A stretch of DNA of 64,000 nucleotides from contig JAEUUG010000009.1 of assembly GCA_016787565.1 (NCBI GenBank), positions 1-64,000 on the forward strand, written 5' to 3'. The translations under genes were made by a program, and so were the position numbers. This DNA is from Cyclobacteriaceae bacterium. Its GTDB lineage: Bacteria; Bacteroidota; Bacteroidia; Cytophagales; Cyclobacteriaceae. This document shows positions 11,179-42,960 of this stretch, one piece after another (the first letter of the stretch is position 1; each line of letters opens with the position of its first letter). The notes beneath the pieces are model-generated. The model ran no database searches. It was not told where the DNA came from and saw only the letters and a program-made list of their open reading frames with translations.

Positions 11179-11204
11179 AAAGCAGCGAAATCGCTGCTTT
11201 TTTC
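11179..11204 (+). terminator. Terminator after the DUF349 gene
   Basis: Perfect stem AAAGCAGCG/CGCTGCTTT (11179-11187 and 11192-11200) with an AAAT loop, continuing into TTTC. It begins 12 bases after the stop codon. Confidence 0.88.
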
Positions 11205-11225
11205 TTACCGCTCAAGTCACAGATA

Positions 11226-11885: not shown

Positions 11886-11908
11886 CATAATCCCGGCTTC
11901 ATGATGAT

Positions 11909-26113: not shown

Positions 26114-29100
26114 ATGAAAAGTAAACCCACGTACATTAATACCGATGGCAATTCAGCAGTAGCCAACATTGCATACGGATTCAGCGAAGTAGCTGCGATT
26201 TATCCCATTACACCCTCATCCGATATGGGTGAGCGGGCGGATGCATGGTCGGCTGAAGGACGAAAAAATATATTTGGTGAACGCGTTGATGTGGTTCAAA
26301 TGCAGTCAGAGGCGGGAGCAGCCGGTGCTATTCATGGAGCCTTAAGTGGTGGCGCCATGGCCACAACGTTTACAGCATCACAGGGACTGATGCTCATGGT
26401 TCCGAATATGTTTAAGATAGCCGGTGAGATGATTCCCACCGTTTTTCATGTTTCGGCACGTTCATTAGCCTGCCAGGCGCTTTCTATTTTTGGTGATCAC
26501 TCCGATGTAATGGCAACCCGCGGAACAGGCTTTGCTATGCTGGCTTCCGGTAACGTACAAGAGGCACAGGATTTGGCCGTGGTTTCGCACCTCGCTACGT
26601 TGGAAGCACGTATTCCATTCCTTCACTTCTTTGATGGCTTTCGAACCTCACACTCCATACAAAAGATTGTTCCAATAGAATATGAAGAACTGAAATCCAT
26701 GCTTGACATGAAGTATGTTGAAGCTTTCCGCGATATGGCATTGAAGCCTGAAGCGCCTGTATGTAAAGTGGGTGCACAAAATCCGGATGTGTATTTTCAG
26801 GGAAGGGAAACGGTTAATCAATATTATGATGCTTGTCCAGGTATTGTGAAGAAGTACATGGACCTGTTCGCCAAAAGAACCGGTCGTCAATATAAATTGT
26901 ATGAATACATTGGCGATCCAAAAGCTACTAAGATTCTTGTCTCTATGGGATCGTCTATCGAAACCATTGAAGAAACCATCAACTACTTAACGAAGAAGGG
27001 CGAGAAGGTCGGAGCGATTAAAGTAAGATTGTACAGACCATTTGCTCTGGAAGATTTCACGTCAATTATTCCTACCTCCGTCAAGAAAATTGCCGTACTG
27101 GATCGCACTAAAGAACCGGGATCAATCGGAGAGCCGCTCTATATGGATGTGTTGGCTGCACTGCGCGATCGCCCCGAGATCAAAATCATTGGAGGACGCT
27201 ATGGACTGTCGTCCAAGGAGTTTACACCATCCATGGTAAAAGCCGTTTTTGATCACCTCGAAAATAATGGCTTCCATGGTTTCACAGTAGGCATCAACGA
27301 TGATGTAACGCATAAATCCATTTCCGTAAAAGAAGATATTGATGCCGAGCAGGAAGGTATCGTACGCTGCAAGTTCTGGGGATATGGATCGGATGGAACC
27401 GTAAGCGCTAACAAGAACTCAATCAAAATTATTGGCGAAAGCACTGATCTCTTTGTACAGGGGTATTTCCAATATGACTCAAATAAGTCGGGTGGCTATA
27501 CCGTATCGCATTTGCGATTCGGCAAAAAGCCTATTCAATCAGAATACTTATTGAACAAAGTTGATTTCGTAGCACTGCACCGGCCGCAATACATTGGTCA
27601 GTATGACATTCTTGAAGGCATAACCGAAGGCGGAACCTTCCTGATCAACTCTAGTCAGAAACCCGAAAACATTTTCAGACTATTTACCCGCGATATGCAG
27701 GAAACAATCTGGAAAAAGAAAATAAAAGTTTATGCAATTGATGCATCGAAGATCGCCAAGAGCGTGGGCCTCGGAGGCCGCATTAACTCGGTGATGCAAA
27801 CAGCTTTCTTCAAAGTTTCAGGCGTAGTGCCGGAAGAGGAAGCGATTACGCTGATCAAAAAATATGTCGAGAAACAATTCGCCCGTAAGGGAAAGGAAAT
27901 TGTGGAAATGAACTGGAAGGCCATTGATGCATCTGCGGAGGCAGTAACACTCATTCCGATTCCTGCTGAGGCAGAGAAATTTGCAGAAATCACAGAACTT
28001 GTTCCGGCTGGGTCGGGTGACTATGCCCAATTCATCATGGATCCGATTCTTCGGTTGAAAGGTGATAGCATTCCTGTATCGCGCATGCCGCTGAATGGCG
28101 CTATCCCTACGGGAACGAAACGATTTGAATACCGCGGTGTGGCGGGCAATCCGGCAACGTGGATTGATAAGCTTCCATTCGTGCAAGAACCCTATACTGC
28201 TGAGCCCTATATCGAATACCCTCCAAGCTGTTCAGGTTGTGGCGAAGTGCCCTACATCCACCTGGTAACTCAGTTGTACGGTGACCGGATGATCATCGCC
28301 AATGCCACAGGTTGTACCTCTATTTATGGCGGAACATTTCCCGCTACGCCTTATACAAAAGATAGCCGAGGAAGGGGACCGGCCTGGGCAAATTCACTCT
28401 TTGAAGATAATGCTGAATTTGGTTTTGGTATGCGCCTCGCAGTAGATGCTAATCGCAGACAATTGAAAACAAATGTTGAATCGCTTTTGGCCAGTCTGAA
28501 AGACGGTACGCTGAAAGAAGCATTACTGCGGAGTCTTATACTTTTCAACGAAGTAAATAAGGAAGCGAAGGAACATGCCGATACCGTAAAGGCTATACTG
28601 GCCGAAGCTCAAAAAGATATTGATACTGCTTTAAAACCTACGTTAGAAAAGATCATCGAGCTTCAAGATTACTTTGTTGATAAGAGCGTGTGGATTTTTG
28701 GAGGTGATGGTTGGGCCTACGACATTGGCTTTGGTGGACTCGATCACATCATGGCCTCAAACCGGAATGTAAATGTGCTGGTCATGGATACTGAAGTTTA
28801 CTCCAATACGGGTGGTCAGGCGTCAAAGGCAACACCCCGCGGAGCCGTTGCAAAGTTTGCTTCCGATGGAAAAAAACTCGGTAAGAAAAACCTCGGCCTC
28901 ATGATGACAACGTATGGCAATGCCTACGTGGCCAGCGTGAACATGGGTATGGATCGTGAGAAAACAGCACTGGCGTTTGTTGAGGCTGAGAAGCACAACG
29001 GGCCGTCCATCATCATTGCGTACTCGCCTTGCATCGCACATGGTTATAGCATGAACCAGGCAAAGAAACAATCTGAAAAGGCAACCAAGAGTGGCTACTG

Positions 29101-29326
29101 GCCGATGTATCGTTTCAATCCGGATTTGAGAGCGGAAGGACTGAATCCATTTACATGGGATGTTCAAACAGAAGAGGTAGTGTCATTTAAAGATTATCTG
29201 GAAGAAGAGATTCGATACAAGACACTGAATCTCTCTAACCCGGTGGAAGCTGAACGCCTCATTGAACTGGCGAAAAAAGATAATGAACAACGTTTCCACG
29301 ACATTAAACATTTAAGTGAAGTTTAA
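26114..29326 (+). CDS. nifJ: Pyruvate:ferredoxin/flavodoxin oxidoreductase lacking the ferredoxin domain
   Basis: 1070 residues; family members normally have about 1170 to 1230. The enzyme oxidises pyruvate and CoA to acetyl-CoA and CO2 with thiamine pyrophosphate. Domains I-III are normal (YPITPSSDMGERADAW at the start; GYFQYDSNKSGGYTVSHLRF in the gamma-like domain). The EKR site reads FEYRGVA at 671-677. In other enzymes about 100 residues with two 4Fe-4S clusters follow; here only 31 residues without cysteine separate Arg674 from the proximal cluster. That cluster is intact: Cys706, Cys709, Cys734 and Cys973. The TPP site GDGWAYDIGFGGLDH and VYSNTGGQ is intact. Reading frame is clean, so this is a domain loss, not a frameshift. 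The flavodoxin two genes downstream is a likely acceptor. Confidence 0.95.
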   Translation: MKSKPTYINTDGNSAVANIAYGFSEVAAIYPITPSSDMGERADAWSAEGRKNIFGERVDVVQMQSEAGAAGAIHGALSGGAMATTFTASQGLMLMVPNMFKIAGEMIPTVFHVSARSLACQALSIFGDHSDVMATRGTGFAMLASGNVQEAQDLAVVSHLATLEARIPFLHFFDGFRTSHSIQKIVPIEYEELKSMLDMKYVEAFRDMALKPEAPVCKVGAQNPDVYFQGRETVNQYYDACPGIVKKYMDLFAKRTGRQYKLYEYIGDPKATKILVSMGSSIETIEETINYLTKKGEKVGAIKVRLYRPFALEDFTSIIPTSVKKIAVLDRTKEPGSIGEPLYMDVLAALRDRPEIKIIGGRYGLSSKEFTPSMVKAVFDHLENNGFHGFTVGINDDVTHKSISVKEDIDAEQEGIVRCKFWGYGSDGTVSANKNSIKIIGESTDLFVQGYFQYDSNKSGGYTVSHLRFGKKPIQSEYLLNKVDFVALHRPQYIGQYDILEGITEGGTFLINSSQKPENIFRLFTRDMQETIWKKKIKVYAIDASKIAKSVGLGGRINSVMQTAFFKVSGVVPEEEAITLIKKYVEKQFARKGKEIVEMNWKAIDASAEAVTLIPIPAEAEKFAEITELVPAGSGDYAQFIMDPILRLKGDSIPVSRMPLNGAIPTGTKRFEYRGVAGNPATWIDKLPFVQEPYTAEPYIEYPPSCSGCGEVPYIHLVTQLYGDRMIIANATGCTSIYGGTFPATPYTKDSRGRGPAWANSLFEDNAEFGFGMRLAVDANRRQLKTNVESLLASLKDGTLKEALLRSLILFNEVNKEAKEHADTVKAILAEAQKDIDTALKPTLEKIIELQDYFVDKSVWIFGGDGWAYDIGFGGLDHIMASNRNVNVLVMDTEVYSNTGGQASKATPRGAVAKFASDGKKLGKKNLGLMMTTYGNAYVASVNMGMDREKTALAFVEAEKHNGPSIIIAYSPCIAHGYSMNQAKKQSEKATKSGYWPMYRFNPDLRAEGLNPFTWDVQTEEVVSFKDYLEEEIRYKTLNLSNPVEAERLIELAKKDNEQRFHDIKHLSEV

Positions 29327-29343
29327 AACCAACACATACCAAC

Positions 29344-30393
29344 ATGGCCGATTTAAAAACAACATATTGTGGATTGACGCTCAAAAACCCCATCGTGGTT
29401 GGAGCCAGCAATCTGGTTACAGAAGTAGATAATCTGGTAAAACTTGAGAAGGCTGGTGCGGCTGCCATTGTATACAAGTCTCTTTTTGAAGAACAAATTC
29501 AGTTGGAAACACTGGAGATGGAAAACACACACGATGACTACAGTAATTGGGACGCTGAGCACGATTCATTTTTTCCAAAATTAAAACATGGTGGCCCTGC
29601 CGAGCACTTACTTCGGCTGCGCCAGGCGCGCAATGCTATAAGCATTCCACTGATTGGCAGCCTCAATGCGGTGTATCACGACACATGGGTTGAATATGCG
29701 CAAAAAATGGCGGACACCGGAATTGATGCACTGGAGTTGAACTTCTACGCCAGCGAAAACGACTTTGAAGCAGATCCCGCATCAATCGAAAAAAATCAAC
29801 TTGAAATTTTAAAGGATGTGCGCAAAGCCATACGCATCCCGGTAATAGTAAAATTAAGTCCATACTACACCAACACGTTATCGCTTGTTTCACGAATGGA
29901 TAAAGCGGGTGCTGCAGGCTTTGTTTTATTCAACAGGTTGTTTCAACCCGATATTGATATTGAAGGTCAGAAACATCATTTCCCCTATAACTTTAGTAAC
30001 GAAAACGACAACAGGCTGGCACTGCGCTATGCCGGACTTTTGTACAGCAAAATTCATGGCTCCATCATCGCCAATACGGGCATTTTAAACGGTCACGATG
30101 TCATTAAAATGTTGTTGGCCGGTGCAGATGCTGTACAGGTAGTAAGTGTGATTTATAAAAAAGGTATCGGATACATTGAACAATTGCTGGCTGATCTTGA
30201 GAAGTGGATGGAGAAGAAAGGCTATGGATCGATCAATGAATTCAAAGGAAAATTATCCAAAGAAAATCTTACCGATCCCTTTGCTTACAAGCGCGCACAG
30301 TATGTGGATATCCTGATGCGTTCCGAGATTTTTATGCAGTATCATCCCAAGCGGGGAGAGCTGCATGATAAGCATGAAGATTATTCAGAATAA
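29344..30393 (+). CDS. Dihydroorotate dehydrogenase-like flavoprotein
   Basis: 349 residues, an FMN-binding TIM barrel of the DHOD/PreA superfamily. Recognisable parts are CGLTLKNPIVVGASNLV at the start, LELNFYASEND, IPVIVKLSPYYTNT and ANTGILNGHDVIKMLLAGADAVQV, the last binding the FMN phosphate. It is not the pyrimidine enzyme: the usual Cys/Ser catalytic loop is not apparent. Genes of this kind sit beside nifJ in many bacteria, so a role in a low-potential redox step coupled to the pyruvate enzyme is likely but undefined. It starts 17 bases after nifJ. Confidence 0.88.
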   Translation: MADLKTTYCGLTLKNPIVVGASNLVTEVDNLVKLEKAGAAAIVYKSLFEEQIQLETLEMENTHDDYSNWDAEHDSFFPKLKHGGPAEHLLRLRQARNAISIPLIGSLNAVYHDTWVEYAQKMADTGIDALELNFYASENDFEADPASIEKNQLEILKDVRKAIRIPVIVKLSPYYTNTLSLVSRMDKAGAAGFVLFNRLFQPDIDIEGQKHHFPYNFSNENDNRLALRYAGLLYSKIHGSIIANTGILNGHDVIKMLLAGADAVQVVSVIYKKGIGYIEQLLADLEKWMEKKGYGSINEFKGKLSKENLTDPFAYKRAQYVDILMRSEIFMQYHPKRGELHDKHEDYSE

Positions 30394-30427: not shown

Positions 30428-30937
30428 ATGGCAAAGATTGGAATTTTTTACGGCTCAACGGAAGGTAATACCGAAAGGGTCGTTACGCAGATTCAGGCTC
30501 AACTTGGTGGCGAAGCCGAAGCGGTATTGCATAACGTTAGCTCAGCTTCTGCGGATGATATGCAGCCCTATTCATACCTCATTTTGGCTTGTCCTACCTG
30601 GGAGATTGGCCAGCTTCAGGAAGATTGGGATACGTTCATCGATGAACTGGCCGATGTGGATTACACAGGTAAGAAAGTAACCTATGTGGGTTTGGGAGAT
30701 GCAGATGGTTATCCGGATACATTTCTGGATGCGATGGGCCTTATTCACGATAAGATCAAAGACAAGGGTGCATCTTTTGTCGGAGCCTGGCCAACCGATG
30801 GGTATAACTTCGAAGCTTCAAAGGGTGTTGTGGATGGAAAGTTTCTCGGCCTGGGTATTGACGAGGACAATCAAAAAGATTTAACGGCAGGAAGAATTGA
30901 GAAGTGGGTCGCACAGCTTAAAACTGAATTTGCATAA
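30428..30937 (+). CDS. fldA: Long-chain flavodoxin
   Basis: 169 residues. The FMN phosphate loop is FYGSTEGNTE (8-17), the isoalloxazine-flanking loops are CPTWEIGQLQEDW with Trp near 58 and GLGDADGYPDTF with Tyr near 97, and the extra loop of long-chain flavodoxins is present near 120-140. Flavodoxins carry single electrons at low potential in place of ferredoxin. Its place between a pyruvate oxidoreductase without its own ferredoxin domain and an Rnf complex makes it the obvious mobile carrier of this operon. Confidence 0.93.
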   Translation: MAKIGIFYGSTEGNTERVVTQIQAQLGGEAEAVLHNVSSASADDMQPYSYLILACPTWEIGQLQEDWDTFIDELADVDYTGKKVTYVGLGDADGYPDTFLDAMGLIHDKIKDKGASFVGAWPTDGYNFEASKGVVDGKFLGLGIDEDNQKDLTAGRIEKWVAQLKTEFA

Positions 30938-30946
30938 GCTGAAATC

Positions 30947-32011
30947 ATGGCAGGCATTCGGTTCAAAAAACCTTCGTATCCAGTCAGTGAACAATTACGA
31001 CAATACCTGACTGAAACCAATCGGGAGATTGATGTACCGATTGCCTACCGCGATCTATTGCATTACAACAGCGCCATTACCTTGTATGATAAGAAGGGTG
31101 CCGATACGCTTTGGGAAACGCTGATCTATTCAGAGTCCGATCGTCATTACATTCATGACAGCCTGCGAAAAATCTATGCGCAACTAAAAGTGGGTGGTGA
31201 TGTCAGCACAATTGAGCACCTCTATATTGACCGCGTGGATTATTGCCTGTACGCCAACACGCATCCCGTTCGGGTGCGGATAGTAAACAAGCTAAACGAT
31301 CTGTTCGATTATTTTTACATAAAGGAAGCAGATGCTTCACGCATTTATGGGATGGAGATTGAGCATCTCTTGTCGCCCAACAAAATCAATTACCTCGTAA
31401 AGGGAAATACGCTTATAGAAGAACATATTCAGGGAATACCGGGCGATAGCTTCAACCAATATTATTTGAAAGAGAACCACAGCTTTAATCCGCTGCGCAT
31501 CGCCAAGGAGTTTGTTAAATTCAATGAGAGGAGCCTGGTGCAGTTACTGGGCGATATGCGAAGGGATAATTTTGTTGTGGAAATTATCCCCGACTTTGAT
31601 GAGATGTATTTTCGGTTGCGCGCCATTGATTTCGATCAGGAATGTTATGAAGGCAACCGCGCCATCTACATGCCGCAATATTTCAAGGAGAATAATCCCA
31701 TCATCAACCTGGGCTTTAAAACCATGTCGGCAGTGTTGGAGCTCCAATATCAAAAAGAAGAACGCACCCGGATACTCAATCGGGTAAAAGCTTCACAGGA
31801 GCAACTCACACGCCTGTTGAATGCTATGGTTGAGGATACACTCTCAACACCCGATAATGTAAAGCAACTGAGGGAAGAGTTAAGTGACTTGTATGGTGAT
31901 GATGAGTTTTTATCATGCCGGTCGATGGGAGAAATTGTTCGTGTTAGTTTACGCATGCTGGAGAAGTATCCGCAGCGTAAGCGAAACACAGTAAAAGCAT
32001 TTGTCAACTGA
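30947..32011 (+). CDS. Unknown protein with kinase-like catalytic motifs, in the redox operon
   Basis: 354 residues, soluble, not a family I can name. The pattern resembles the protein kinase-like fold of choline/aminoglycoside phosphotransferases: FDYFYIKEAD (candidate ATP lysine Lys126), GMEIEHLL (candidate Glu137), a hinge-like NTLIEEHIQGIPGDSF (154-169), then GDMRRDN at 202-208 matching GDxxxxN, and RAIDFD at 225-230 matching the metal-binding DFx. The C-terminal 90 residues are helical and rich in charge. It begins nine bases after the flavodoxin stop and ends three bases before the RseC-like gene, so it belongs to this operon. Role is unknown; control of the pyruvate enzyme, flavodoxin or Rnf is a guess. 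Confidence 0.75.
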   Translation: MAGIRFKKPSYPVSEQLRQYLTETNREIDVPIAYRDLLHYNSAITLYDKKGADTLWETLIYSESDRHYIHDSLRKIYAQLKVGGDVSTIEHLYIDRVDYCLYANTHPVRVRIVNKLNDLFDYFYIKEADASRIYGMEIEHLLSPNKINYLVKGNTLIEEHIQGIPGDSFNQYYLKENHSFNPLRIAKEFVKFNERSLVQLLGDMRRDNFVVEIIPDFDEMYFRLRAIDFDQECYEGNRAIYMPQYFKENNPIINLGFKTMSAVLELQYQKEERTRILNRVKASQEQLTRLLNAMVEDTLSTPDNVKQLREELSDLYGDDEFLSCRSMGEIVRVSLRMLEKYPQRKRNTVKAFVN

Positions 32012-32014
32012 GCT

Positions 32015-32431
32015 ATGGAAGAGAAATCCTATATCCAACATGCTGGTTTTGTGGTAGCGCACGAGAAAGGTAAACTGCACATTTCCCTTCTGGAAACAGC
32101 AGGCTGTTCATCGTGCCACAATGCCTTATGCCTATTGGGTAACACCGGATCGAAGCAAGTGGAAGTACGGGATTCCACGAGTCATTTTCTTGTTGGAGAA
32201 GAAGTGGTGGTTCGCATCAATCCTGCCTCCGGCTATGCAGCTGTAGCGTGGCTATACATGCTTCCGTTTGCCCTTATCATGGCGGTTATGATTTTGCTTT
32301 TGCAACTGCAATATGCTGAAGGCATAGCCGGGCTTCTTTCCTTTGGTGTACTTGTTCCGTATTACGGCACTTTGTATCTGTTGCGAAAACAATTTCGTGG
32401 CCAATGTAAAATTGAAATTGCAAAACGATGA
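32015..32431 (+). CDS. RseC/RsxC-associated SoxR-reducing family membrane protein
   Basis: 138 residues of the RseC/MucC family. Cysteines in ETAGCSSCHNALCLLG near 29-38 match the family's cysteine-rich loop. Two membrane helices follow (AAVAWLYMLPFALIMAVMIL and GLLSFGVLVPYYGTLYLL). In E. coli RseC acts with the Rsx (Rnf) complex in keeping SoxR reduced. Here it overlaps rnfB by four bases (ATGA), so it is translated with the Rnf subunits. Confidence 0.88.
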   Translation: MEEKSYIQHAGFVVAHEKGKLHISLLETAGCSSCHNALCLLGNTGSKQVEVRDSTSHFLVGEEVVVRINPASGYAAVAWLYMLPFALIMAVMILLLQLQYAEGIAGLLSFGVLVPYYGTLYLLRKQFRGQCKIEIAKR

Positions 32432-33366
32432 ATCCAGTTATTTTTTATACCATCATCAGCCTTGTCGGGATTGGAATCATCGCAGCGATTGTTCTGTATT
32501 TTGTATCCAAGAAATTCTATGTTCAGGAGGATAGCCGGATCAATGCCGTTGAACAAGTTTTACCCAACACAAACTGTGGCGGATGCGGTCAGCCCGGATG
32601 CCATGCTTTTGCACAAGCGGTTGTAAAGGCAGGTGATCTTTCTTCGTTGCATTGCCCCGTAGGAGGAAATGACGTGATGAAGCAAGTGGCTGAAATACTG
32701 GGTGTGAAGGCTGTTGAAAAAGATCCCTACATCGCAGTGGTACGGTGTTCCGGCTCATTTGAATATAGAAAAAAAACGAATGTATACGATGGTGCTGACT
32801 CCTGCAAGGTAGCCGCCTACCTCTATAGTGGTGATACAGGATGTGCCTACGGATGTTTAGGCATGGGTGATTGCGTTCAGGTGTGCGACTTTGAAGCCAT
32901 GTACATGGATGAAAAAACCGGGCTTCCGGTAGTCATCGAAGATAAATGTACTGCCTGCAACGCCTGCGTCAAAGAATGCCCAAAGGGTATACTGGAGCTT
33001 TGGCCAAAAGGTAAGAAGAATCAGCGCGTTTACATCGCCTGCCTCAATGAAGAGAAGGGCAGCACAGCTCGCAAAGAATGTGCTGTTGCCTGTTCAGGTT
33101 GTTCCAAGTGTTTTGAGGCTTGTCGCTATGATGCCATCACCATGGCGAACAGCCTGGCGCACATTGATCCTGAAAAGTGCAAGTTGTGTATGGAGTGTGT
33201 TGATACGTGTGATGTACACAACATTATTACAGCAAACGTAACACCTGAAAAAATACAGGCTGCCAACGAGCAGCGTCTGAAGCGTGAGGAACGTGCACGA
33301 AAGAAAAAGGAAGAAGAAAAACTGGCTGCTAAACAACAAGGTGATGAGCACACAGAACAAGCTTAA
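32428..33366 (+). CDS. rnfB: Rnf complex subunit B (ferredoxin-type iron-sulfur protein)
   Basis: 312 residues. An N-terminal membrane anchor (3-25) is followed by the 4Fe-4S site Cys50-x2-Cys53-x4-Cys58-x17-Cys76 (NTNCGGCGQPGC). Further 4Fe-4S sites lie in the ferredoxin-like part, for example CTACNACVKECPKG and CKLCMECVDTC, together with CSGCSKCFEAC. The C-terminal tail after residue 270 is a lysine/glutamate-rich helix. RnfB receives electrons from the soluble carrier on the cytoplasmic side. Its 3' end overlaps rnfC by 23 bases. Confidence 0.94.
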   Translation: MNPVIFYTIISLVGIGIIAAIVLYFVSKKFYVQEDSRINAVEQVLPNTNCGGCGQPGCHAFAQAVVKAGDLSSLHCPVGGNDVMKQVAEILGVKAVEKDPYIAVVRCSGSFEYRKKTNVYDGADSCKVAAYLYSGDTGCAYGCLGMGDCVQVCDFEAMYMDEKTGLPVVIEDKCTACNACVKECPKGILELWPKGKKNQRVYIACLNEEKGSTARKECAVACSGCSKCFEACRYDAITMANSLAHIDPEKCKLCMECVDTCDVHNIITANVTPEKIQAANEQRLKREERARKKKEEEKLAAKQQGDEHTEQA

Positions 33367-34681
33367 GACATTTAACATCGGTGGCGTGCACCCGGATGAT
33401 CATAAGATTTCGGCTCGTATACCGATTACAACATTGCCATTGCCCAAAACCGTAATCATTCCCGTGGCCCAGCACATTGGGACACCGGCAACCATTGTTG
33501 TTCAGCGTGGTGATTCCGTAAAAGTCGGGCAGGTATTGGCAAAACATCAGGGTTTTGTTTCTTCTAATATTCATTCCTCTGTCAGCGGAAGAGTTGGGAT
33601 TATCGAAGAAGTAATGGATAGTTCCGGATTTAAGCATACAGCCATTTCTATAAAAGTTAAAGGAGATGATTGGGAGGAAACCATCGATCGAAGTGATAAT
33701 CTCGTTGAGGACATTTCCCTGGAGGGAAAAGAGATTGTAACCCGCATCATGGAGGCCGGAGTAGTGGGTATGGGTGGTGCCGCGTTTCCATCGCATGTTA
33801 AGCTGAGTGTTCCCGAAGGAAAGCATGTGGACTACCTGTTGATCAATGGTGTGGAGTGTGAGCCCTATCTTACATCCGACCACCGCATCATGCTCGAAAA
33901 ACCCAGAGAAATAATAGTCGGTATAAAAATTCTCATGAAAGCATTGGGGGTAAAAAATGCCATCATTGGGATTGAAGATAATAAGCGTGATGCAGTGGAA
34001 AATTTTAGCGACCTGCTTCAACATGAAACAGGCATTGAGGTTCAGCCACTCGAAGTTCAGTATCCGCAAGGAGGAGAGAAGCAGTTGATCCAGGCGCTCT
34101 TGAATCGTGAAGTTCCGTCTGGTGGTTTGCCCTCGGATGTGGGCGTGATTGTGCACAATGTAGGTACCACCTTTGCGATCTATGAGGCTGTACAAAAAAA
34201 TAAACCACTGGTTGAGCGTGTGGTAACCGTAACCGGAAAATCCGTTAAGCAACCGGGTAACTTTTTAGTTCGAATCGGCACTCCTGTAATTGACGTACTG
34301 ATTGCTGCGGGTGGCGTACCCGAAGATACAGGCAAGATTGTGAGTGGCGGCCCGATGATGGGAAAAGCCATTGCCGACCTCGATGTTCCGGTGGCAAAAG
34401 GAACTTCCGGAATTTTATTAATTCCAAAGGCCGAAGCACTGCGCGCTGAAATTTATAATTGCCTCCATTGTGGTAAATGTATTGAAGCCTGCCCGATGGG
34501 ACTGGAGCCTTACCATCTGCTATTGATGACAAAAAAAGGAAATTATGATAAGGCAAAACACGAGCACATTATGGATTGCATTGAATGCGGATCATGCTCG
34601 TTCGTTTGTCCATCGAACCGCCCCATACTGGACTATATCCGGTTGGGTAAAACTGAAATTAGAAAACCGAAGAAAGCATGA
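33344..34681 (+). CDS. rnfC: Rnf complex subunit C (NADH-binding)
   Basis: About 445 residues from ATG 33344, which has AAGG upstream; the frame remains open earlier within rnfB. RnfC is the peripheral NADH-interacting subunit, related to Nqo1. Present are the barrel-sandwich N terminus, the nucleotide/FMN motif GVVGMGGAAFPSH and two 4Fe-4S sites, CLHCGKCIEACP and CIECGSCSFVCP. It overlaps rnfD by four bases (ATGA). Confidence 0.95.
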   Translation: MSTQNKLKTFNIGGVHPDDHKISARIPITTLPLPKTVIIPVAQHIGTPATIVVQRGDSVKVGQVLAKHQGFVSSNIHSSVSGRVGIIEEVMDSSGFKHTAISIKVKGDDWEETIDRSDNLVEDISLEGKEIVTRIMEAGVVGMGGAAFPSHVKLSVPEGKHVDYLLINGVECEPYLTSDHRIMLEKPREIIVGIKILMKALGVKNAIIGIEDNKRDAVENFSDLLQHETGIEVQPLEVQYPQGGEKQLIQALLNREVPSGGLPSDVGVIVHNVGTTFAIYEAVQKNKPLVERVVTVTGKSVKQPGNFLVRIGTPVIDVLIAAGGVPEDTGKIVSGGPMMGKAIADLDVPVAKGTSGILLIPKAEALRAEIYNCLHCGKCIEACPMGLEPYHLLLMTKKGNYDKAKHEHIMDCIECGSCSFVCPSNRPILDYIRLGKTEIRKPKKA

Positions 34682-35709
34682 GCGAACAATTGCTTGCCGT
34701 TTCACCGTCACCCCACATTCATACGGAACTTACCGTGCCGCAAATTATGAAGGGTGTAATTATCGCCATGTTACCGGCATTTGCGCTTTCCATTTACAAT
34801 TTTGGAATTACATCGCTATATGTAACCGTATTGTCCGTTTCGTTCTGTGTTGCAGCCGAGTATTTAATCACCCGGTATTTACTAAAAAAATCAGCGAGCA
34901 TTCAGGATGGTTCCGCAATCATTACAGGTATGTTGCTGGCCTTTAATGTACCCAGTAATTTGCCGTGGTATATCATTCTGATCGGAAGTCTTGTATCCAT
35001 CGGAATTGGCAAGATGAGCTTTGGTGGTTTGGGAAACAATCCCTTTAATCCGGCTTTGGTTGGACGCGTGTTTTTATTGTTGTCGTTTCCGGTACAGATG
35101 ACAAGCTGGCCCGTGGCGAAGGCAACCTTATCCTTCGATGCTGTTACCAGTGCAACACCATTAGGTTTATTGAAAGAGGGTATTCGCGCTGGTGATTCGA
35201 TGGACACCATCATGCAAACTATGCCAACGTATAGCGATTTCTTTTTCGGCTTTCAATCCGGATCGCTTGGTGAAATGTCAGCTTGTGCATTACTCCTTGG
35301 ATTAGGATACATGCTTTACCGAAAAATAATCACCTGGCATATTCCGGTCACCATGCTGGCAACTGTTCTTATTATGACCGGAATATTCTGGCTGATCGAT
35401 CCCAATCGATTTGCAAATCCGTTGTTTCATGTATTGACGGGTGGTGTTATGCTCGGTGCTGTTTTTATGGCAACCGATTATGTTACCTCACCGGTATCGC
35501 ATCGTGGAATGATTGTGTTCGCTCTTGGTATTGGTGTGCTGACAGTTTTGATTCGGTTGTTCGGTAGTTACCCGGAAGGTGTATCCTTTGCTATCCTGAT
35601 TATGAATGCTTTTGTTCCCATGATTAATACCTACATCAAACAACCTCGGTATGGTGTGCAAAAGGAAGGCAAGCCCCGTAAGGAACCAACACCCATTAAA
35701 GCAAATTGA
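34678..35709 (+). CDS. rnfD: Rnf complex subunit D (membrane FMN protein)
   Basis: 343 residues with about nine predicted membrane helices. Thr160 in VTSATPLG corresponds to the covalent FMN attachment threonine of RnfD/NqrB. GKMSFGGLGNNPFNPALVGR is the family signature. The subunit is part of the ion-translocating core. Its stop TGA is followed at once by the rnfG start region. Confidence 0.95.
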   Translation: MSEQLLAVSPSPHIHTELTVPQIMKGVIIAMLPAFALSIYNFGITSLYVTVLSVSFCVAAEYLITRYLLKKSASIQDGSAIITGMLLAFNVPSNLPWYIILIGSLVSIGIGKMSFGGLGNNPFNPALVGRVFLLLSFPVQMTSWPVAKATLSFDAVTSATPLGLLKEGIRAGDSMDTIMQTMPTYSDFFFGFQSGSLGEMSACALLLGLGYMLYRKIITWHIPVTMLATVLIMTGIFWLIDPNRFANPLFHVLTGGVMLGAVFMATDYVTSPVSHRGMIVFALGIGVLTVLIRLFGSYPEGVSFAILIMNAFVPMINTYIKQPRYGVQKEGKPRKEPTPIKAN

Positions 35710-35711
35710 TT

Positions 35712-36302
35712 ATGGCAGCTATTGCTTCATCGTTTAAAAATATGACCATCACACTGGTACTTGTCACGCTGGTGGCCGCTGTTTCAATGGGGTATGTTTT
35801 TCAATGGACAAAGGTACCCATTGCTGAAGCAAGATTAGCGAAACAACTGAAGGCCATTGAAGCCGTAGTGAAGGGATATGATAATAACCCGGTATTGGAA
35901 AAGTACAAGGTGATAACTCCTGATGGAAAAGATAGTCTTGAGTTTTTTCCGGCAAAGGCCGATGGCAACCTTATCGGCATGGCAGTAAAGACACGTTCCT
36001 CAAAAGGCTACAGTGGTGATATTTGGCTGATGGTAGGGTTCTCGATGAAAGGCGAAATTCTCAAGGTATATGTAGTGGAGCACCGCGAAACTCCCGGCCT
36101 CGGCTCTAAAATGACAGATCTGAAATTTTATCAGCAGTTTGTCGGAAAAAATCCGGAGCAGATGAAATTGAAAGTCAAGAAGGATGGAGGAGATGTGGAT
36201 GCCATCTCCGGAGCCACCATTAGCTCACGTGCCTACGCTGAGGCTGTTCAATTGGCATACGATACGTTTAAAGCCGCAAATTATGGTGAAGCAAATCAGT
36301 AA
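35712..36302 (+). CDS. rnfG: Rnf complex subunit G (periplasmic FMN protein)
   Basis: About 196 residues. One N-terminal membrane helix (about 10-28) anchors a periplasmic domain of the FMN-binding family; Thr169 in [10 protein letters not shown] is the covalent FMN site. The start is ATG 35712; an upstream TTG at 35706 overlaps the rnfD stop. The 3' end overlaps rnfE by 20 bases. Confidence 0.94.
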
Positions 36303-36894
36303 TAAAGAAAATTTTCTGAAGGGAATCATTAAAGAGAATCCCGTCTTTGTGCTCTTGCTGGGGTGTTGCCCGACACTGGGCGTAACATCATCTGCCATTA
36401 ATGGATTGGGCATGGGCGTGGCCACCATGTTTGTCTTGATCATGTCCAATGTGGTGATCTCGCTGGTGAAAAATGTTATTCCCGATAAAGTTCGTATACC
36501 CTCTTTCATCGTAATAATTGCTGCCTTTGTAACCGTTGTTCAACTGCTGATGGAAGCTTACACACCTGCGCTACACGAACAATTGGGATTATTTATTCCC
36601 CTTATTGTTGTGAATTGTATTGTGCTGGGAAGAGCCGAGGCCTTTGCATCGCGTAATACACTTTTTTCAAGCATGATCGATGGATTAGGCATGGGTGTTG
36701 GGTTTACTTTTGCCCTTGTATTGCTGGGAAGTATACGCGAGGTGTTGGGGAGTTTGTCATTGTTTGGCTTTCGGTTCGCAGAAGCAGATGGCATGCTCAT
36801 TTTTATTCTGGCACCTGGTGCTTTTATTACCCTTGGATTTATTATTGCCGTGATGACCTGGATAAAAAAACGTAAACCAAAAACCACTTCTTAA
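36283..36894 (+). CDS. rnfE: Rnf complex subunit E
   Basis: About 203 residues from ATG 36283 ([14 protein letters not shown]), the typical beginning; the longer frame runs backwards through rnfG and is not family sequence. Six membrane helices are expected. [11 protein letters not shown] near the first helix holds a cysteine that, in the RnfA/E pair, takes part in binding an intramembrane 2Fe-2S cluster, and [14 protein letters not shown] contains the second. Confidence 0.94.
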
Positions 36895-36908: not shown

Positions 36909-37481
36909 ATGGAATACATCATCATTATCATATCCACGATTTTCATCAACAACATTGTATTGGCAAAATTTTTAGGGATTTGTCCTTTTTTAGGCGTCTC
37001 CAAAAATACATCAACTGCTGTAGGCATGGGAGGCGCTGTCATTTTTGTGATGACCATCGCCACCATCATGACCTACCTGGTGCAGCATTATATTTTAATT
37101 CCGCTTGACATCGAATACCTTCAAACCGTTACCTACATTCTGGTGATTGCTTTTTTAGTACAAGTGGTGGAAATTGTTCTGAAGAAAGTAAGTCCGGATT
37201 TATACCAGGCACTGGGCGTCTATCTTCCGTTGATCACAACCAACTGCGCCATTTTAGGTGTAGCCATTCTGGTTATTCAAAATGATTTTAACCTCTTGCA
37301 AAGTGTAACATTCGCCATCGGAAATGCCATCGGGTTTACACTGGCCATCGCTATTTTTTCAAGCTTGCGTGAGCAGTTGGAGAACGCTGATCTTCCCGAA
37401 TATATGCAGGGTGTTCCGGCTGCCCTCATCACGGCCAGTATTCTTTCGATGGCATTTATGGGCTTTGCAGGTCTGGTATGA
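36909..37481 (+). CDS. rnfA: Rnf complex subunit A
   Basis: 190 residues, six membrane helices, homologous to RnfE with opposite topology. LAKFLGICPFLGVSK and TTNCAILGVAI carry the conserved cysteines for the intramembrane iron-sulfur cluster shared with RnfE. It is the last gene of rnfBCDGEA, and its stop is 11 bases from the stop of the convergent phosphate transporter gene; I see no terminator between them. Confidence 0.95.
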   Translation: MEYIIIIISTIFINNIVLAKFLGICPFLGVSKNTSTAVGMGGAVIFVMTIATIMTYLVQHYILIPLDIEYLQTVTYILVIAFLVQVVEIVLKKVSPDLYQALGVYLPLITTNCAILGVAILVIQNDFNLLQSVTFAIGNAIGFTLAIAIFSSLREQLENADLPEYMQGVPAALITASILSMAFMGFAGLV

Positions 37482-37492
37482 TCTGCTACAGA

Positions 37493-39751
37493 CTAAACTG
37501 ATTTCTTAACCGATTGTATGGTGAAATCGCAATATAGTGTGTGTACACGTTCTACTATTGTGATTACATCTTTTACTTCGAGGAAAATTCGGGTCTGTAA
37601 TAATCCCAGTTTATTGCCGATATCATTTTTTTGAATATCAAGGATCAGGCCGTCAATAGCGATGTTGATGTAAGCAATTAATTTATCGTGTTTATCCTGA
37701 ATGATGGCGTCATTCTCAACAGATAATTTTTCAATGCTGATCACAGCCAAATCAATGTAGCTCTCTAAATCTTTCTCTAACTCGCTAAACACTTTCTGGT
37801 ATTTTTTTGTGGGAGGCGAATGGTGATTGATCACATGGAAGGAGCAGACTTCATTCACAAGTTGGGCACTTTGGTACAGGTCCTGCATCAGGTCAAACAC
37901 CAGAATGTACAATCTGCCGGCAGGCAAATTTCCTTTTTCCATTTTCTGAACATACTTGATGAGTTTGCCGTGCAGTTTTTCATTCTGCTCTTTCAGTTTT
38001 TTAATTTCCTTTCCGGACTTATTCAGGGCGTTGCCGTCTTCTTTTAATAGTGATTGAATGCTATGCAGCGTTACTTTGCGTACTGTCTTTAAATTTTTAA
38101 TGGTGTTGCTCTTGCTTTCACTAATAACCTGATGGATATCGGCTGATGGGGATTCTAGAACCTGATTTGAAATTTTTTCTTCACTGGATTTACGTTTAAA
38201 TACAACGTGACTACGGATAATAAGAAAACCTGCCAGACCACTCAATGCCAACATGCCTATGATACCTGTATGATACATGATGAGCGCAAACAATCCGCTG
38301 GTAAGTATGGCAACGATGGCGGTAATGAGCCATCCGGCTATCACATTCATGACACCCGCCACGCGGTATACAGCACTCTCTCTTCCCCAGGCCTGATCGG
38401 CAAAGGATGTACCCATCGCTACCATAAAGGTTACGAATGTAGTTGAAAGAGGTAGTTTCTGTGAAGTGCCATACGCAATTAAGGCACTTGAAACAATAAG
38501 ATTTATAGAGGCCCGGATAAGATCGAAAGATGGTTTTTCAGGATCCTGCTTAAGTTTCTCCTGGTCGAGATTTTCTTTTTTGAAACGAACCAGCATGACC
38601 TGATTGATGTATTGCGGAACAATACGTTGCACGCCACGGCCAAGCCACATCGCACTGCCTACTAAGGCACGAGACAAAAAATTGGGTCTGAATTTTTCGT
38701 CACCATCATCCTGGCGGGCCAGCGAAATTTCTGTCTCTGTAACCTTGCGGCTTTTTGCATTCGTCCACAACGTAATGGTCATCACGATTCCCGCACCAAC
38801 TAAGATCAATGTAGGCGTTACAATTTTTTCATTGAGTATACCCATATTAAACTCACTGGCAGGAACTCCGGAAGCACTCCAGGCCTGAAAGGACATTAGC
38901 CCGGCTACTGAAACACCAATAAAATTGACCAAGTCGTTTCCGGCAAAAGCCATAGCAAGCGAAAAGGTGCCCAACAAAACAATGATTTTCAGCGGGTTTA
39001 CATCTTGCCACCACATCAGCACCTGAATGAAAATAGACCAAAAAATAACGAAGACCACTAAGATCATTCCGGTATTTTTCATGATCCAGCTAACCTGACT
39101 ATCGGTGACAAGTGCACTTCCTTTTACGCCCTTGATCAACAAGAAGTAAATAATGGTGGTGATGGCGATACCGCTGAAAATTGCACCATACTTTTTAAGG
39201 TTCCGTTTGAAATTGAAGGTGAAGATTAAGCGGGAAACATGTTGAATGATAGTCCCGGTAATAAAAGCGAGAAACACTGACAAGAATATCCCTACAATAA
39301 TGGTTATGGCGCTGGAATAATTAATAATCTGTTTCCAGGTCTCAAACCCCATTCCTTGATCAAAGGCATACAATAATCCGGTTACAAGGGCTGCACCGAG
39401 CAGTTCGAAAATAAGAGATACGGTAGTAGAGGTTGGTAGCCCGAGGGAATTGTAAAAATCAAGTAAGATAATGTCGGTAATCATCACTGCCATAAAAATG
39501 ATGATGACCTTATCGAAAGTGAAGAAACTTGGATTAAAGATGCCACTTCGGGCAATTTCCATCATACCGCTGGAAAACAGGGAGCCCATCAGGATACCCA
39601 AACTGGCAATGATCAGAATAGTTCGAAAAGAGGCCACTTTTGACCCGATCGCAGAGTTTAGAAAATTAACAGCATCATTACTAACACCCACGATAAGATC
39701 GACCACAGCAATGGCCATCAGGATGATGACGAGGACAAGATAAATATTCAT
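37493..39751 (-). CDS. PiT-family phosphate transporter fused to PhoU-like domain
   Basis: 752 residues. The first 520 residues form a PiT (Pho4) inorganic phosphate permease with two inverted copies: GVSNDAVNFLNSAIGSK near 22-38 and AGNDLVNFIGVSVAG near 270. The last 200 residues are soluble, helical and resemble a PhoU-like bundle, starting after FLIIRSHVVFKRK. In most bacteria a separate pit accessory protein plays this part, so the fusion is a compact version. It is transcribed with korAB on the minus strand or alone; the gap to korB is 97 bases. Confidence 0.88.
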   Translation of the reverse strand: MNIYLVLVIILMAIAVVDLIVGVSNDAVNFLNSAIGSKVASFRTILIIASLGILMGSLFSSGMMEIARSGIFNPSFFTFDKVIIIFMAVMITDIILLDFYNSLGLPTSTTVSLIFELLGAALVTGLLYAFDQGMGFETWKQIINYSSAITIIVGIFLSVFLAFITGTIIQHVSRLIFTFNFKRNLKKYGAIFSGIAITTIIYFLLIKGVKGSALVTDSQVSWIMKNTGMILVVFVIFWSIFIQVLMWWQDVNPLKIIVLLGTFSLAMAFAGNDLVNFIGVSVAGLMSFQAWSASGVPASEFNMGILNEKIVTPTLILVGAGIVMTITLWTNAKSRKVTETEISLARQDDGDEKFRPNFLSRALVGSAMWLGRGVQRIVPQYINQVMLVRFKKENLDQEKLKQDPEKPSFDLIRASINLIVSSALIAYGTSQKLPLSTTFVTFMVAMGTSFADQAWGRESAVYRVAGVMNVIAGWLITAIVAILTSGLFALIMYHTGIIGMLALSGLAGFLIIRSHVVFKRKSSEEKISNQVLESPSADIHQVISESKSNTIKNLKTVRKVTLHSIQSLLKEDGNALNKSGKEIKKLKEQNEKLHGKLIKYVQKMEKGNLPAGRLYILVFDLMQDLYQSAQLVNEVCSFHVINHHSPPTKKYQKVFSELEKDLESYIDLAVISIEKLSVENDAIIQDKHDKLIAYINIAIDGLILDIQKNDIGNKLGLLQTRIFLEVKDVITIVERVHTLYCDFTIQSVKKSV

Positions 39752-39848: not shown

Positions 39849-40895
39849 CTACACCTCCCAATAATTGCTTCCCTGCAATAAGGATTCAAGGTTGCCCTCA
39901 CCTTTCTCTTTAATTTCGTTTTCAATCTGATCTTCAACCTGTTGCTCATAAGATGATTTGTCGATGTTTTGTAATACCCCCATTGGCCTGGGCAATTCTT
40001 CAGAGTAGGTCATGTTCGCTAAAATGAACGCCAGTGTTGTATCATTTTGATTATGCACCATTACATCGTTCAGGCTTCTGCCATCCCCATCGAGGGCCAC
40101 AACACGTGGCGTAAAGCCATCCATGATGAGTCCTTTATTCTTAGTCTTTCCGAAAACGAGAGGTTTTCCGTGCTCTACAAAGATTGTATGGTCATCACGA
40201 GTGTCTGCATTTGTATATTGATCGAATGCTCCATCATTGAAAATGCGGCAATTCGTATAAATCTCTATAAATGATGTACCCTTATGTTGATAGGCCTGTA
40301 ACAATAAGTTTTGCAACTGCTGGCGATCTTTATCATGACCACGGGCCACAAAGGTAGCACTGGCACCAAGGGCTAAAGCAACAGGATTGAAAGGATCATC
40401 CAGCACACCAAGGGGAGATGACTTTGTAATCTGGCCCCGATGAGATGTGGGTGAATATTGACCTTTCGTTAAGCTATAGACTTCATTATTGAACATCAGG
40501 ATGTTCAGATCAACATTCCTGCGGCAGGCATGAATAAAATGGTTTCCACCGATGCTCATGTTATCGCCATCACCGGTTACAACCCATACGCTTAAATCGG
40601 GTCGCGCAATTTTCAATCCGCTGGCGATGGGTAATCCTCGTCCGTGTATACCATGAAATCCATAGGTATCCATATAATAAGGAAACCGGCCGGAACAACC
40701 TATACCGGATACAAACACAATCTTCTCCTTCGGGATTCCCAGGTCAGGCATTAAGCGCTGGGCAGGTGAAAGAACTGAAATAGCGCCACAGCCGGCACAC
40801 CAACGCACATCCACATCGGGTTTAAAGTCTTTTGATGTAAGGTGGTCTTCGCCTACATGGGGTTTTTCAAGTATCTGATCAATGATTGTTTTCAT
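39849..40895 (-). CDS. korB: 2-oxoacid:ferredoxin oxidoreductase, beta subunit
   Basis: 348 residues. This is the TPP-binding subunit of the two-subunit enzyme. Four cysteines bind its single 4Fe-4S cluster: Cys33, Cys36 (WCAGCGA), Cys67 (GIGCSGR) and Cys216 (YTNCRIF). The TPP motif is GDGDNMSIGGNHF with NNEVYSLTKGQYSPTS. Together with korA it probably oxidises 2-oxoglutarate to succinyl-CoA, a ferredoxin-linked route common in Bacteroidota. There is no ferredoxin-like subunit nearby, so the enzyme has one cluster only. Confidence 0.93.
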   Translation of the reverse strand: MKTIIDQILEKPHVGEDHLTSKDFKPDVDVRWCAGCGAISVLSPAQRLMPDLGIPKEKIVFVSGIGCSGRFPYYMDTYGFHGIHGRGLPIASGLKIARPDLSVWVVTGDGDNMSIGGNHFIHACRRNVDLNILMFNNEVYSLTKGQYSPTSHRGQITKSSPLGVLDDPFNPVALALGASATFVARGHDKDRQQLQNLLLQAYQHKGTSFIEIYTNCRIFNDGAFDQYTNADTRDDHTIFVEHGKPLVFGKTKNKGLIMDGFTPRVVALDGDGRSLNDVMVHNQNDTTLAFILANMTYSEELPRPMGVLQNIDKSSYEQQVEDQIENEIKEKGEGNLESLLQGSNYWEV

Positions 40896-40907
40896 GGTAA
40901 TGCTTTA

Positions 40908-42794
40908 TTAAAGGTCAACAGGGAGATCTATTTTTGAACTGGCAGGCCACTTCTTAATATCTCGCATGGAGATCAGCATCGAGAGTTTTTCTTCCAGTTC
41001 CACAGCCTTAAAGGGTTTGCCTTGTACTTTATTGATGCCAATGACTGGCTTCAAATATTTGGCCTGAATCAGGCTTTTAAGTTGTCCCAGGTTTAATTCA
41101 GGTATGACAACACGATCGAATTTGTGTAGCAATTCACCCAGATTTTTTGGAAAAGGATTTAGGTACCGCAGATGCGCAAAGGAAAGATTATGCCCTTTTG
41201 CCTTCAGGTGTTCGACAGCGGTTTTAGCCGCGCCATAGGTGCTTCCCCAACTCAGCAGCAGTAAATCACCTTCGTGTTCACCGAATACTTCGAGGTCGGG
41301 TATATCATTGGCAATTCCATCAATCTTTCGCTGCCGGATTTCTACCATTTTCTGGTGGTTCATCGGATCGTGGCTCACCACGCCACTACCATCTTCCTTC
41401 TCTAATCCGCCAATGCGGTGTTCCATGCCCTGCATACCAGGAATAGCCCAAAGTCTGCTCAGCGTTTCCGGGTTTCGAAGGTAGGGTTTGAAGGTGGTTG
41501 AGTCATCCGCAAAATGCGGAGCAATTTCCGGTAATTGACCGATCGATGGTATTCGCCAGGGTTCGGATGCTTGACCTATGTATCCATCGCTCAATAGCAT
41601 AACCGGTGTCATGTATTTCAATGCGATGCGGGCAGCTTCAAGTGTCATATCGAAACAATCGGCTGAACTGGCTGCGGCCAGCACCGGAAGTGGTGCTTCA
41701 CCATGCCGACCATACATGGCTTGCATCAAATCACTTTGTTCTGTTTTGGTAGGTAAACCTGTTGACGGACCGGCACGCATCACATTCACAATAATCAATG
41801 GCAACTCCGTCATAATAGCGAGCCCGATGGCTTCACTTTTTAGGGATAGGCCAGGTCCACTCGTTGTCGTTACCGCCAGGCTTCCGCCAAACGCAGCACC
41901 GATAGCACTGGCAATACCGGCAATTTCATCTTCCGCTTGCAAGTGCTTGACACCATACTTTTTGTAACCGGAAATGGCATGAAGGATATCCGTGGCAGGC
42001 GTAATCGGGTAGGAGCCCAAAAAAAGCGGGAGGTGTGCTTTTGTGGCGGCTACCACTAAGCCCAATGCCACAGCCTGGTTTCCGGTGATGCTTCTGTATT
42101 TTCCCGACTCCAATTGCGATCTGTCAATGATGTATTGCTTTCGGAAATCCGGGTTTTTCTCAGCAAAGTTCCAACCCCCTTGCAGGGCATGCACATTAGC
42201 GAGAATAATATCTTCTTTGCCTTTAAACTTTTTATTGATCCACGATACCGTTGGTTCCAGCGGACGGTTGAACAACCAATAGGTTATACCAAGCGCAAAT
42301 ATGTTTCGGGTTTTTTGCACCAGTTTTGAAGGAACATCCAATTCAATGAATGCCTTCTTCAGCTCCTTATTTAAATCAACAGGAAAAACATTGTACTTCG
42401 CCAGACTTCCATCCTCCAGCGGATTTTGGGTATAACCGGTTAGTTTCAGGTTGCGGTCATCAAATCCATCTGAGTTGATGATGAGTAACCCTTGCTCGCG
42501 AACATGTGGAAGATTCACTTTCAGACTGGCAGCATTCATGGCTACGAGTACGTCTACAAAATCGCCAGGCGTATGAATGTTTTTGGTTCCGAAATGCACC
42601 TGGAATGCACTGACACCATAAAGCGTTCCTTCCGGAGCGCGAATTTCGGATGGATAATCCGGGAACGTATTGACTTCATTTCCGGCAAAGCCGGATGTGT
42701 CCGAAAATTGGGTGCCAATCAATTGCATTCCATCACCGGAGTCTCCGGCAAACCGGACGGTAACTTCTTCGAGGTGTTCAATAACTTTATTCAT
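40908..42794 (-). CDS. korA: 2-oxoacid:ferredoxin oxidoreductase, gamma-alpha fusion subunit
   Basis: About 628 residues from ATG at 42792-42794 (MNKVIEHLEEVTVRFAGDSG); the open frame continues 25 codons upstream without family match. The gamma domain is N-terminal (FAGDSGDGMQLIGTQFSDTSG) and the alpha domain starts near 220 with GNQAVALGLVVAA and GSYPITPATDILH. TSGPGLSLKSEAIGLA and RAGPSTGLPTKTEQSDL are strong signatures of the alpha subunit. The gap to korB is 12 bases. The gene is divergent from the nitronate monooxygenase-like gene. Confidence 0.94.
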   Translation of the reverse strand: MNKVIEHLEEVTVRFAGDSGDGMQLIGTQFSDTSGFAGNEVNTFPDYPSEIRAPEGTLYGVSAFQVHFGTKNIHTPGDFVDVLVAMNAASLKVNLPHVREQGLLIINSDGFDDRNLKLTGYTQNPLEDGSLAKYNVFPVDLNKELKKAFIELDVPSKLVQKTRNIFALGITYWLFNRPLEPTVSWINKKFKGKEDIILANVHALQGGWNFAEKNPDFRKQYIIDRSQLESGKYRSITGNQAVALGLVVAATKAHLPLFLGSYPITPATDILHAISGYKKYGVKHLQAEDEIAGIASAIGAAFGGSLAVTTTSGPGLSLKSEAIGLAIMTELPLIIVNVMRAGPSTGLPTKTEQSDLMQAMYGRHGEAPLPVLAAASSADCFDMTLEAARIALKYMTPVMLLSDGYIGQASEPWRIPSIGQLPEIAPHFADDSTTFKPYLRNPETLSRLWAIPGMQGMEHRIGGLEKEDGSGVVSHDPMNHQKMVEIRQRKIDGIANDIPDLEVFGEHEGDLLLLSWGSTYGAAKTAVEHLKAKGHNLSFAHLRYLNPFPKNLGELLHKFDRVVIPELNLGQLKSLIQAKYLKPVIGINKVQGKPFKAVELEEKLSMLISMRDIKKWPASSKIDLPVDL

Positions 42795-42960
42795 GGCGGG
42801 CTGTCGTTTGAAAGTATGTGTGAATCGTACATAAAAGATAGAATCATCAGTAATACCAGAATATGACAATAATCAGCCGTGTACCTTGATTTAAATCCTA
42901 AAAAACAGGAAGTGATCAGCACATGTCGACAATCGGAGATTTAGATTAATTTTGATTTCT

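Follow-up and report, generated by a model that had tools for sequence, protein, structure and literature searches.

Homodimeric pyruvate:ferredoxin oxidoreductases (PFORs), such as those of Moorella thermoacetica (6cin) and Desulfovibrio africanus (1b0p), hold domains I, II, III, IV (EKR) and VI in one chain, together with a domain V that carries the medial and distal clusters. The textbook view treats this three-cluster wire as part of the single-chain type. NifJ, a pyruvate:flavodoxin oxidoreductase, is likewise a single chain, and its electrons go to a flavodoxin. According to a figure legend, most PFORs have domain V, and domain IV is confined to the dimeric type (PMC8091585, in excerpt). 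The two-subunit StOFOR enzymes have no domain V; a large pocket lies between domains III and VI, the sole cluster is near the surface, and the cognate ferredoxin of the Sulfolobus enzymes was modelled into this pocket (PMC5020499, in excerpt). Here, we analysed a 64,000-nucleotide stretch from a Cyclobacteriaceae bacterium (the window; assembly GCA_016787565.1, contig JAEUUG010000009.1, positions 1 to 64,000), which encodes a putative PFOR of 1070 residues without domain V (the window PFOR). The literature searched did not describe any single-chain PFOR that lacks this domain, and a dimer-type PFOR with domain IV and without V is new as far as that search reached.

The frame is open over 1070 codons from ATG to stop, as the initial annotation had reported, and this uninterrupted frame rules out a frameshift or a truncated end. 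The TIGR02176 profile (homodimeric PFOR/NifJ type) matched with 1501.5 bits against a curated cut-off of 911. The match was split in two, and its first piece set residues 9-684 against profile positions 3-681. Pfam (E up to 0.001) found POR_N, PFOR_II, POR, EKR (domain IV; PF10371, 42.8 bits) and TPP_enzyme_C, and no ferredoxin-type domain anywhere in the 1070 residues. All domains are on one chain in the order I-II-III-IV-VI; they are not divided between an alpha subunit (III-I-II) and a beta subunit (VI). Judged from these matches, the frame is a homodimer-type PFOR in which a short linker takes the place of domain V. We class it as a domain-less variant, not as an ordinary TIGR02176 member, because domain V is missing.

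The fold alignments placed this loss precisely. The window PFOR was 50% identical to the Moorella enzyme and 48% to the Desulfovibrio enzyme, and shared with both the five domains in one chain, the proximal cysteines and the residues of the thiamine pyrophosphate (TPP) and substrate sites. Residues 10-684 and 695-1069 corresponded to 6-682 and 798-1170 of the Moorella enzyme, with about 105 residues net missing exactly at domain V. Residues 8-685 and 696-1068 corresponded to 5-685 and 801-1166 of the Desulfovibrio enzyme, whose domain VII is also missing here. Each of the two enzymes has 115 residues between window PFOR positions 684/685 and 695/696. The alignments and the cysteine count (eight in total: 120, 217, 241, 419, 706, 709, 734 and 973) agree with the earlier statement that the ferredoxin domain is absent and that 31 Cys-free residues separate Arg674 from Cys706. 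From its domain and cysteine content, the window PFOR is read as a single-cluster enzyme with no ferredoxin domain.

The same junction was found in 27 of 125 aligned sequences, and the distance from Trp683 to the residue preceding Cys706 was 23 to 26 residues in these domain-less rows. Because the junction is repeated in 27 separate genomes, one sequence from each, it is neither chance nor an assembly fault. Cys706, Cys709, Cys734, Cys973, Thr33, Glu66, Arg116, Asp865 and Asn898 were invariant in 27/27 domain-less sequences, so the proximal cluster and the TPP site are intact, as had been proposed. The non-cysteine residues among them are those of the TPP and pyruvate sites. An Arg and a Thr are given for the substrate site in the excerpted part of PMC5020499. 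The TPP site, the substrate residues and the proximal-cluster cysteines are unchanged, and the reaction is therefore expected to proceed as in other PFORs until the electrons reach the first cluster.

The domain-less form was then counted in other genomes. Among 196 genomes of the window's family, Cyclobacteriaceae, 24 had PFOR matches at E 1e-60: 13 domain-less, 10 full-length and one fragment. The 13 include the window's own genome, and the other 12 PFORs were 73-88% identical to the window PFOR; the full-length family PFORs were 44-59% identical in the first block. At the class level, 60 of 395 genomes matched at 1e-100 (a few as fragments), and the domain-less forms among the matches listed were four, all from the family. 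At the phylum level, 20 of 395 genomes matched at 1e-240, namely the same four and 16 with the full-length break. A wider search, which covered other phyla unevenly, gave at least 596 matches. Its best 80 comprised four domain-less forms (L032-L035) and 76 with the extra length of domain V (L080 and L097 among the 80 were incomplete), and further domain-less forms may exist elsewhere. One of the four, L034, is a Spirochaetaceae bin. The spirochaete class gave matches at 1e-200 in 277 of its 394 genomes. A comparison of match span with query span marked at least 19 of them, the L034 genome included, as domain-less; the other matches listed mostly broke at 683-687, as full-length forms do. Weaker or fragmentary forms fall outside the counts at 1e-100, 1e-240 and 1e-200. 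Two fragments (G178, G224) and G1010 (66% identical over 4-566, in a 583-aa frame) were left out of form assignment. A recent deletion in a single strain, which would have undone the initial annotation, was ruled out by the 13 family and at least 19 spirochaete-class genomes. The domain-less PFOR is a stable, inherited form in two unrelated bacterial groups and not a broken gene.

A tree of 76 rows was built with a quick method, with the domain-V columns omitted. The 27 domain-less sequences formed one clade (support 100 in the Shimodaira-Hasegawa-like approximate likelihood ratio test, SH-aLRT) whose stem measured 0.27 substitutions per site, which bears out the earlier suggestion of a distinct class of single-chain enzyme. 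The clade splits into the branch of the window's family (14 rows, support 100) and a spirochaete branch (13 rows, support 98). The nearest group consists of full-length PFORs of spirochaetes, Lentisphaerota and Verrucomicrobiota (support 87). Its spirochaete and Lentisphaerota members (L043, L174-L180, L039, L044) are the nearest relatives in the tree; in L039, L043 and L044, the blocks flanking domain V are about 51-61% identical to the window PFOR and domain V is present. The family's own full-length PFORs are placed elsewhere, apart from the domain-less clade. Trees joining the domain-less rows with the full-length rows of spirochaetes or of the family were rejected (approximately unbiased test, p-AU 8e-56 and 1e-7, respectively), and this ruled out that each group had lost domain V separately, from full-length PFORs of its own. 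Given this one clade and its full-length neighbours, domain V was most likely lost once; a single loss followed by gene transfer between phyla is the simplest history. The form probably arose in or near the spirochaetes and reached Cyclobacteriaceae by transfer, a direction taken from the neighbouring group.

Two other relatives help to place the enzyme. L047 (Pantoea), which we take for a NifJ-type row, differs from the window PFOR in retaining domain V with 8 Cys, and lies far from the domain-less clade. The two-subunit KorAB of the same region, to which the initial annotation had likened the window PFOR, was found: its alpha profile exceeds the cut-off and its beta profile, at 248 bits, is just below 262. 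The likeness holds for anatomy, as KorAB/StOFOR enzymes also have one cluster and no domain V. It does not extend to close kinship, since the nearest relatives are full-length PFORs; KorAB/StOFOR enzymes have two subunits (III-I-II plus VI) and no domain IV, whereas the window PFOR is a single chain that follows the PFOR order and retains EKR.

The gene order around the PFOR points to a possible electron carrier. Downstream of it lie a dihydroorotate dehydrogenase-like (DHOD-like) gene, a long-chain flavodoxin (TIGR01752, 220.9 bits against a cut-off of 146.75) and an rnf cluster (Table 1). Eleven further domain-less family loci had enough flank (the window was not counted, and G090 was excluded for its short contig). 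All 11 had the order PFOR, DHOD-like, long-chain flavodoxin, and 8 of the 11 continued to RseC and RnfBCDGEA. Rnf was not at the locus in G027, G185 and G205, which had no rnfC match genome-wide at 1e-40. The PFOR and flavodoxin were still together in these three genomes, and the pair is therefore independent of Rnf. Flavodoxin was beside the full-length family PFOR in none of seven loci, a set that includes the divergent L171 and L172; the full-length PFORs of G100, G152, G180 and G107 were grouped with DHOD-like and KorAB genes. In one spirochaete, G964, the genes lie on a contig of 3,285,855 bases. One strand holds rnfBCDGEA, another gene and a DHOD-like gene; the opposite strand then holds the flavodoxin, the domain-less PFOR and a second DHOD-like gene. 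The flavodoxin is upstream of the PFOR with 215 bases between, and rnfBCDGEA is at most 3 kb from the pair.

Table 1. Features of the window PFOR and of the genes around it (positions in the window)
Feature	Position	Strand	Details
Putative domain-less pyruvate:ferredoxin/flavodoxin oxidoreductase, 1070 aa	26114..29326	+	domains I, II, III, IV/EKR, VI; without V and VII; by Pfam, NCBIfam and fold alignment
Domain III, residues ~416-627	27359..27994	+	limits after the D. africanus enzyme (figure legend in PMC8945911, in excerpt)
Junction, residues 675-705	28136..28228	+	31 Cys-free residues in place of domain V (two 4Fe-4S clusters)
Stretch with proximal-cluster cysteines	28229..29032	+	Cys706 28229-28231, Cys709 28238-28240, Cys734 28313-28315, Cys973 29030-29032
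DHOD-like flavoprotein, PRK07565 subfamily	29344..30393	+	after PFOR in domain-less and several full-length loci
Long-chain flavodoxin (TIGR01752)	30428..30937	+	proposed electron acceptor; by profile
354-aa protein between flavodoxin and RseC	30947..32011	+	no Pfam or NCBIfam family
RseC/MucC family protein	32015..32431	+	Pfam
RnfB	32428..33366	+	NCBIfam
RnfC	33284..34681	+	start codon as mechanically listed; overlaps RnfB
RnfD	34678..35709	+	
RnfG	35706..36302	+	
RnfE	36184..36894	+	start codon as mechanically listed; overlaps RnfG
RnfA	36909..37481	+	
KorAB-type two-subunit 2-oxoacid:acceptor oxidoreductase	39849..42869	-	beta 39849-40895, alpha 40908-42869

The content of whole genomes showed a similar trend. 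The long-chain flavodoxin was present in 28 of 32 domain-less and 10 of 25 full-length genomes (counts that ignore kinship). In domain-less genomes, it was found in 13/13 of the family and 15/19 of the spirochaetes; in full-length genomes, the numbers were 7/10 and 3/15, and in family genomes without PFOR 1/10. Two of the three full-length spirochaete matches, all above the profile cut-off, have one in-frame TAG each (G1217:C35:794-1273 and G963:C1:3072217-3072693). The presence of rnfC does not distinguish the two forms: it was found in 10/13 domain-less and 9/10 full-length family genomes, and in 19/19 and 14/15 spirochaete genomes, respectively.

We consider it fairly probable that the window PFOR is a working PFOR/NifJ-type oxidoreductase that lost domain V as an inherited trait, with flavodoxin as its likely carrier, feeding Rnf. 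Pyruvate would be decarboxylated on TPP, coenzyme A (CoA) would take the acetyl group, and the two electrons would exit singly via the sole proximal [4Fe-4S] cluster. By analogy with the StOFORs, the same vacancy between domains III and VI should exist in the window PFOR; without domain V, this pocket would be open and a soluble carrier could dock beside the cluster. Gene linkage and co-occurrence make the long-chain flavodoxin next to the PFOR the most likely partner for reduction. Rnf, encoded nearby, would re-oxidise the flavodoxin with NAD+ and pump ions, so that the chain would run from pyruvate over TPP, one [4Fe-4S] cluster and flavodoxin to Rnf. Rnf is said to oxidise flavodoxin, a report ascribed to Chowdhury et al. 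2016. Flavodoxin is the main carrier of Eubacterium limosum (PMC13390469, 2026, in excerpt). A natural lineage that manages without this wire would reveal the purpose of domain V, and in a one-cluster PFOR the electron transfer to the carrier could be studied directly. Such a lineage would also suggest a way in which a free flavodoxin can replace a fused ferredoxin, and the annotation "pyruvate:ferredoxin oxidoreductase" in such genomes may name the wrong carrier.

Eight residues mark the domain-less clade: five in domain III (424Y, 431S, 457N, 488L and 524F), 699 and 702 just before Cys706, and 931. Domain III and the residues directly ahead of the cluster thus account for seven of the eight. 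Six other clades compared had 16 diagnostic residues, two in domain III and four in 631-760. G431S sits in the conserved motif GLGSDGTVGANK and K457N in YDSKKSGG. This placement is as expected from a re-shaping of the pocket, and CoA binding by domain III would also allow another explanation, which is taken up below. More tentatively, the domain-less forms might be a separate pyruvate:flavodoxin oxidoreductase class. The fused ferredoxin would have been given up once, its docking space would have become a site for free flavodoxin, and domain III and the flank of the cluster would have been re-shaped. Such an enzyme would need 4 instead of 12 Fe per monomer and expose fewer clusters; it would be iron-sparing, perhaps oxygen-tolerant, and would have moved between phyla with its partners. 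We see this wider proposal as possible, at somewhat less than even chance.

Several observations weigh against flavodoxin as the fitted partner. NifJ-type PFORs with domain V also reduce flavodoxin, and loss of the domain is not required for it. No long-chain flavodoxin was found in 4 of the 19 domain-less spirochaete genomes, and the comparison of domain-less with full-length genomes (spirochaetes p 0.0014, family p 0.07) ignores kinship. Apart from G964, flavodoxin adjoined the PFOR in 0/12 spirochaete domain-less loci, several with short flanks. In five of the seven flavodoxin-bearing full-length family genomes (G004, G107, G152, G180, G200), the flavodoxin is within about 2-3 kb of rnfC, and Rnf may thus explain part of its closeness to the PFOR. 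Small frames resembling ferredoxin occur in three of six domain-less spirochaetes examined (among the matches listed) and in the window's own genome. The flavodoxin is acidic, but no simple charge shift that would make the pocket positive was seen: the charge was 2.2 against 0.8 in sister rows for domain III (p 0.15) and -3.7 against -3.2 for the cluster region (p 0.21), and domains I and IV differed (p ~0.01), with kinship ignored throughout. The share of diagnostic residues in domain III (5/8 vs 2/16, p 0.02) was compared post hoc. The AlphaFold monomer was of middling confidence (predicted local distance difference test, pLDDT, 70.8; residues 662-707 under 50). This model agrees with PFOR over its length (template modelling score, TM, 0.86 against 6cin; in a second structure comparison, Z 42.4, root-mean-square deviation 3.6 and 1003 aligned) and adds nothing on the partner. 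The earlier phrase "fitted to a flavodoxin" therefore stands as an association in gene order and genome content; it is not borne out at 12 of the 13 spirochaete loci, in the four genomes above, or by the ferredoxin gene of the window's own genome.

The missing domain might instead act in trans, with electrons passing to a stand-alone two-cluster ferredoxin and flavodoxin serving only Rnf or low-iron growth. The StOFOR without domain V does use a separate dicluster ferredoxin (PMC5020499, in excerpt), and a single stand-alone candidate was found in the window's own genome, on contig C18: a YfhL-type 4Fe-4S ferredoxin (92.5 bits against a cut-off of 86). However, this gene and the PFOR are on different contigs, and similar frames in G027 (by eye) and perhaps in full-length G100 (116 aa) indicate that it is not special to the domain-less PFOR. 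Among the Fer4_7 matches listed for spirochaetes, which reach about 3.5e-6, the three domain-less genomes with ferredoxin-like frames below 200 aa comprised two with a frame below 100 aa (G1083, G1197) and one with a 138-aa frame, whereas 5/5 full-length genomes examined had a frame below 100 aa, compared with 2/6 of the domain-less ones. In G964, no Fer4_7 match was found in a frame below 288 aa (E 0.001), yet flavodoxin lies beside its PFOR. The idea that domain-less genomes lack ferredoxin was true for some only; ferredoxin is sometimes scarce in them, not absent. We think a ferredoxin in trans rather unlikely.

A change in catalysis instead of partner appears less probable still. The CoA-binding domain III would have changed with the loss, and the enzyme would use another acceptor, synthesise pyruvate or carry out a slow non-oxidative decarboxylation. 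Five of the eight diagnostic residues are in domain III, two of them in the strongly conserved motifs, and this domain holds the CoA P-loop (PMC8091585, in excerpt). PF00676 (pyruvate dehydrogenase E1 and kin) matched the window's own genome and all 23 genomes checked; therefore, the PFOR may serve low-oxygen growth, and its own genome probably has another way to use pyruvate. Nevertheless, S at the G431 position also occurs in full-length L047, the TPP and substrate residues are unchanged, and domain III also forms a wall of the space that domain V vacated (PMC5020499, in excerpt). A decayed gene, a recent one-strain deletion or an assembly artefact would suit a deletion as clean as this one, with flanking domains that align without other large change. 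Against it stand the open frames, the conserved key residues, the single deep clade and the spread over both groups, and we give it a negligible chance.

Some genes near the PFOR had features of their own. The 354-aa protein follows the flavodoxin in 8 of the 11 domain-less family loci, with RseC next in five of those eight, and a homologue is upstream of the full-length PFOR in L166 and L167; it is a PFOR-linked gene. The DHOD-like gene (PRK07565) adjoins PFORs with and without domain V, and the two G964 copies are at L152:6181-7155 and 11204-12214. L171:7938-11399 (G104) and L172:7824-11258 (G097), from the same family, are PFOR homologues that mirror the window PFOR: the eight cysteines of the domain-V region are kept, whereas the EKR motif is lost, and so are three of the four cysteines of the proximal cluster (D or V at 706, S at 734, N or S at 973). 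Between the rnf cluster and KorAB, the window encodes a 752-aa protein on the reverse strand (37493-39751), with a PHO4 phosphate transporter match near its N-terminus (25-332) and a long remainder without family.

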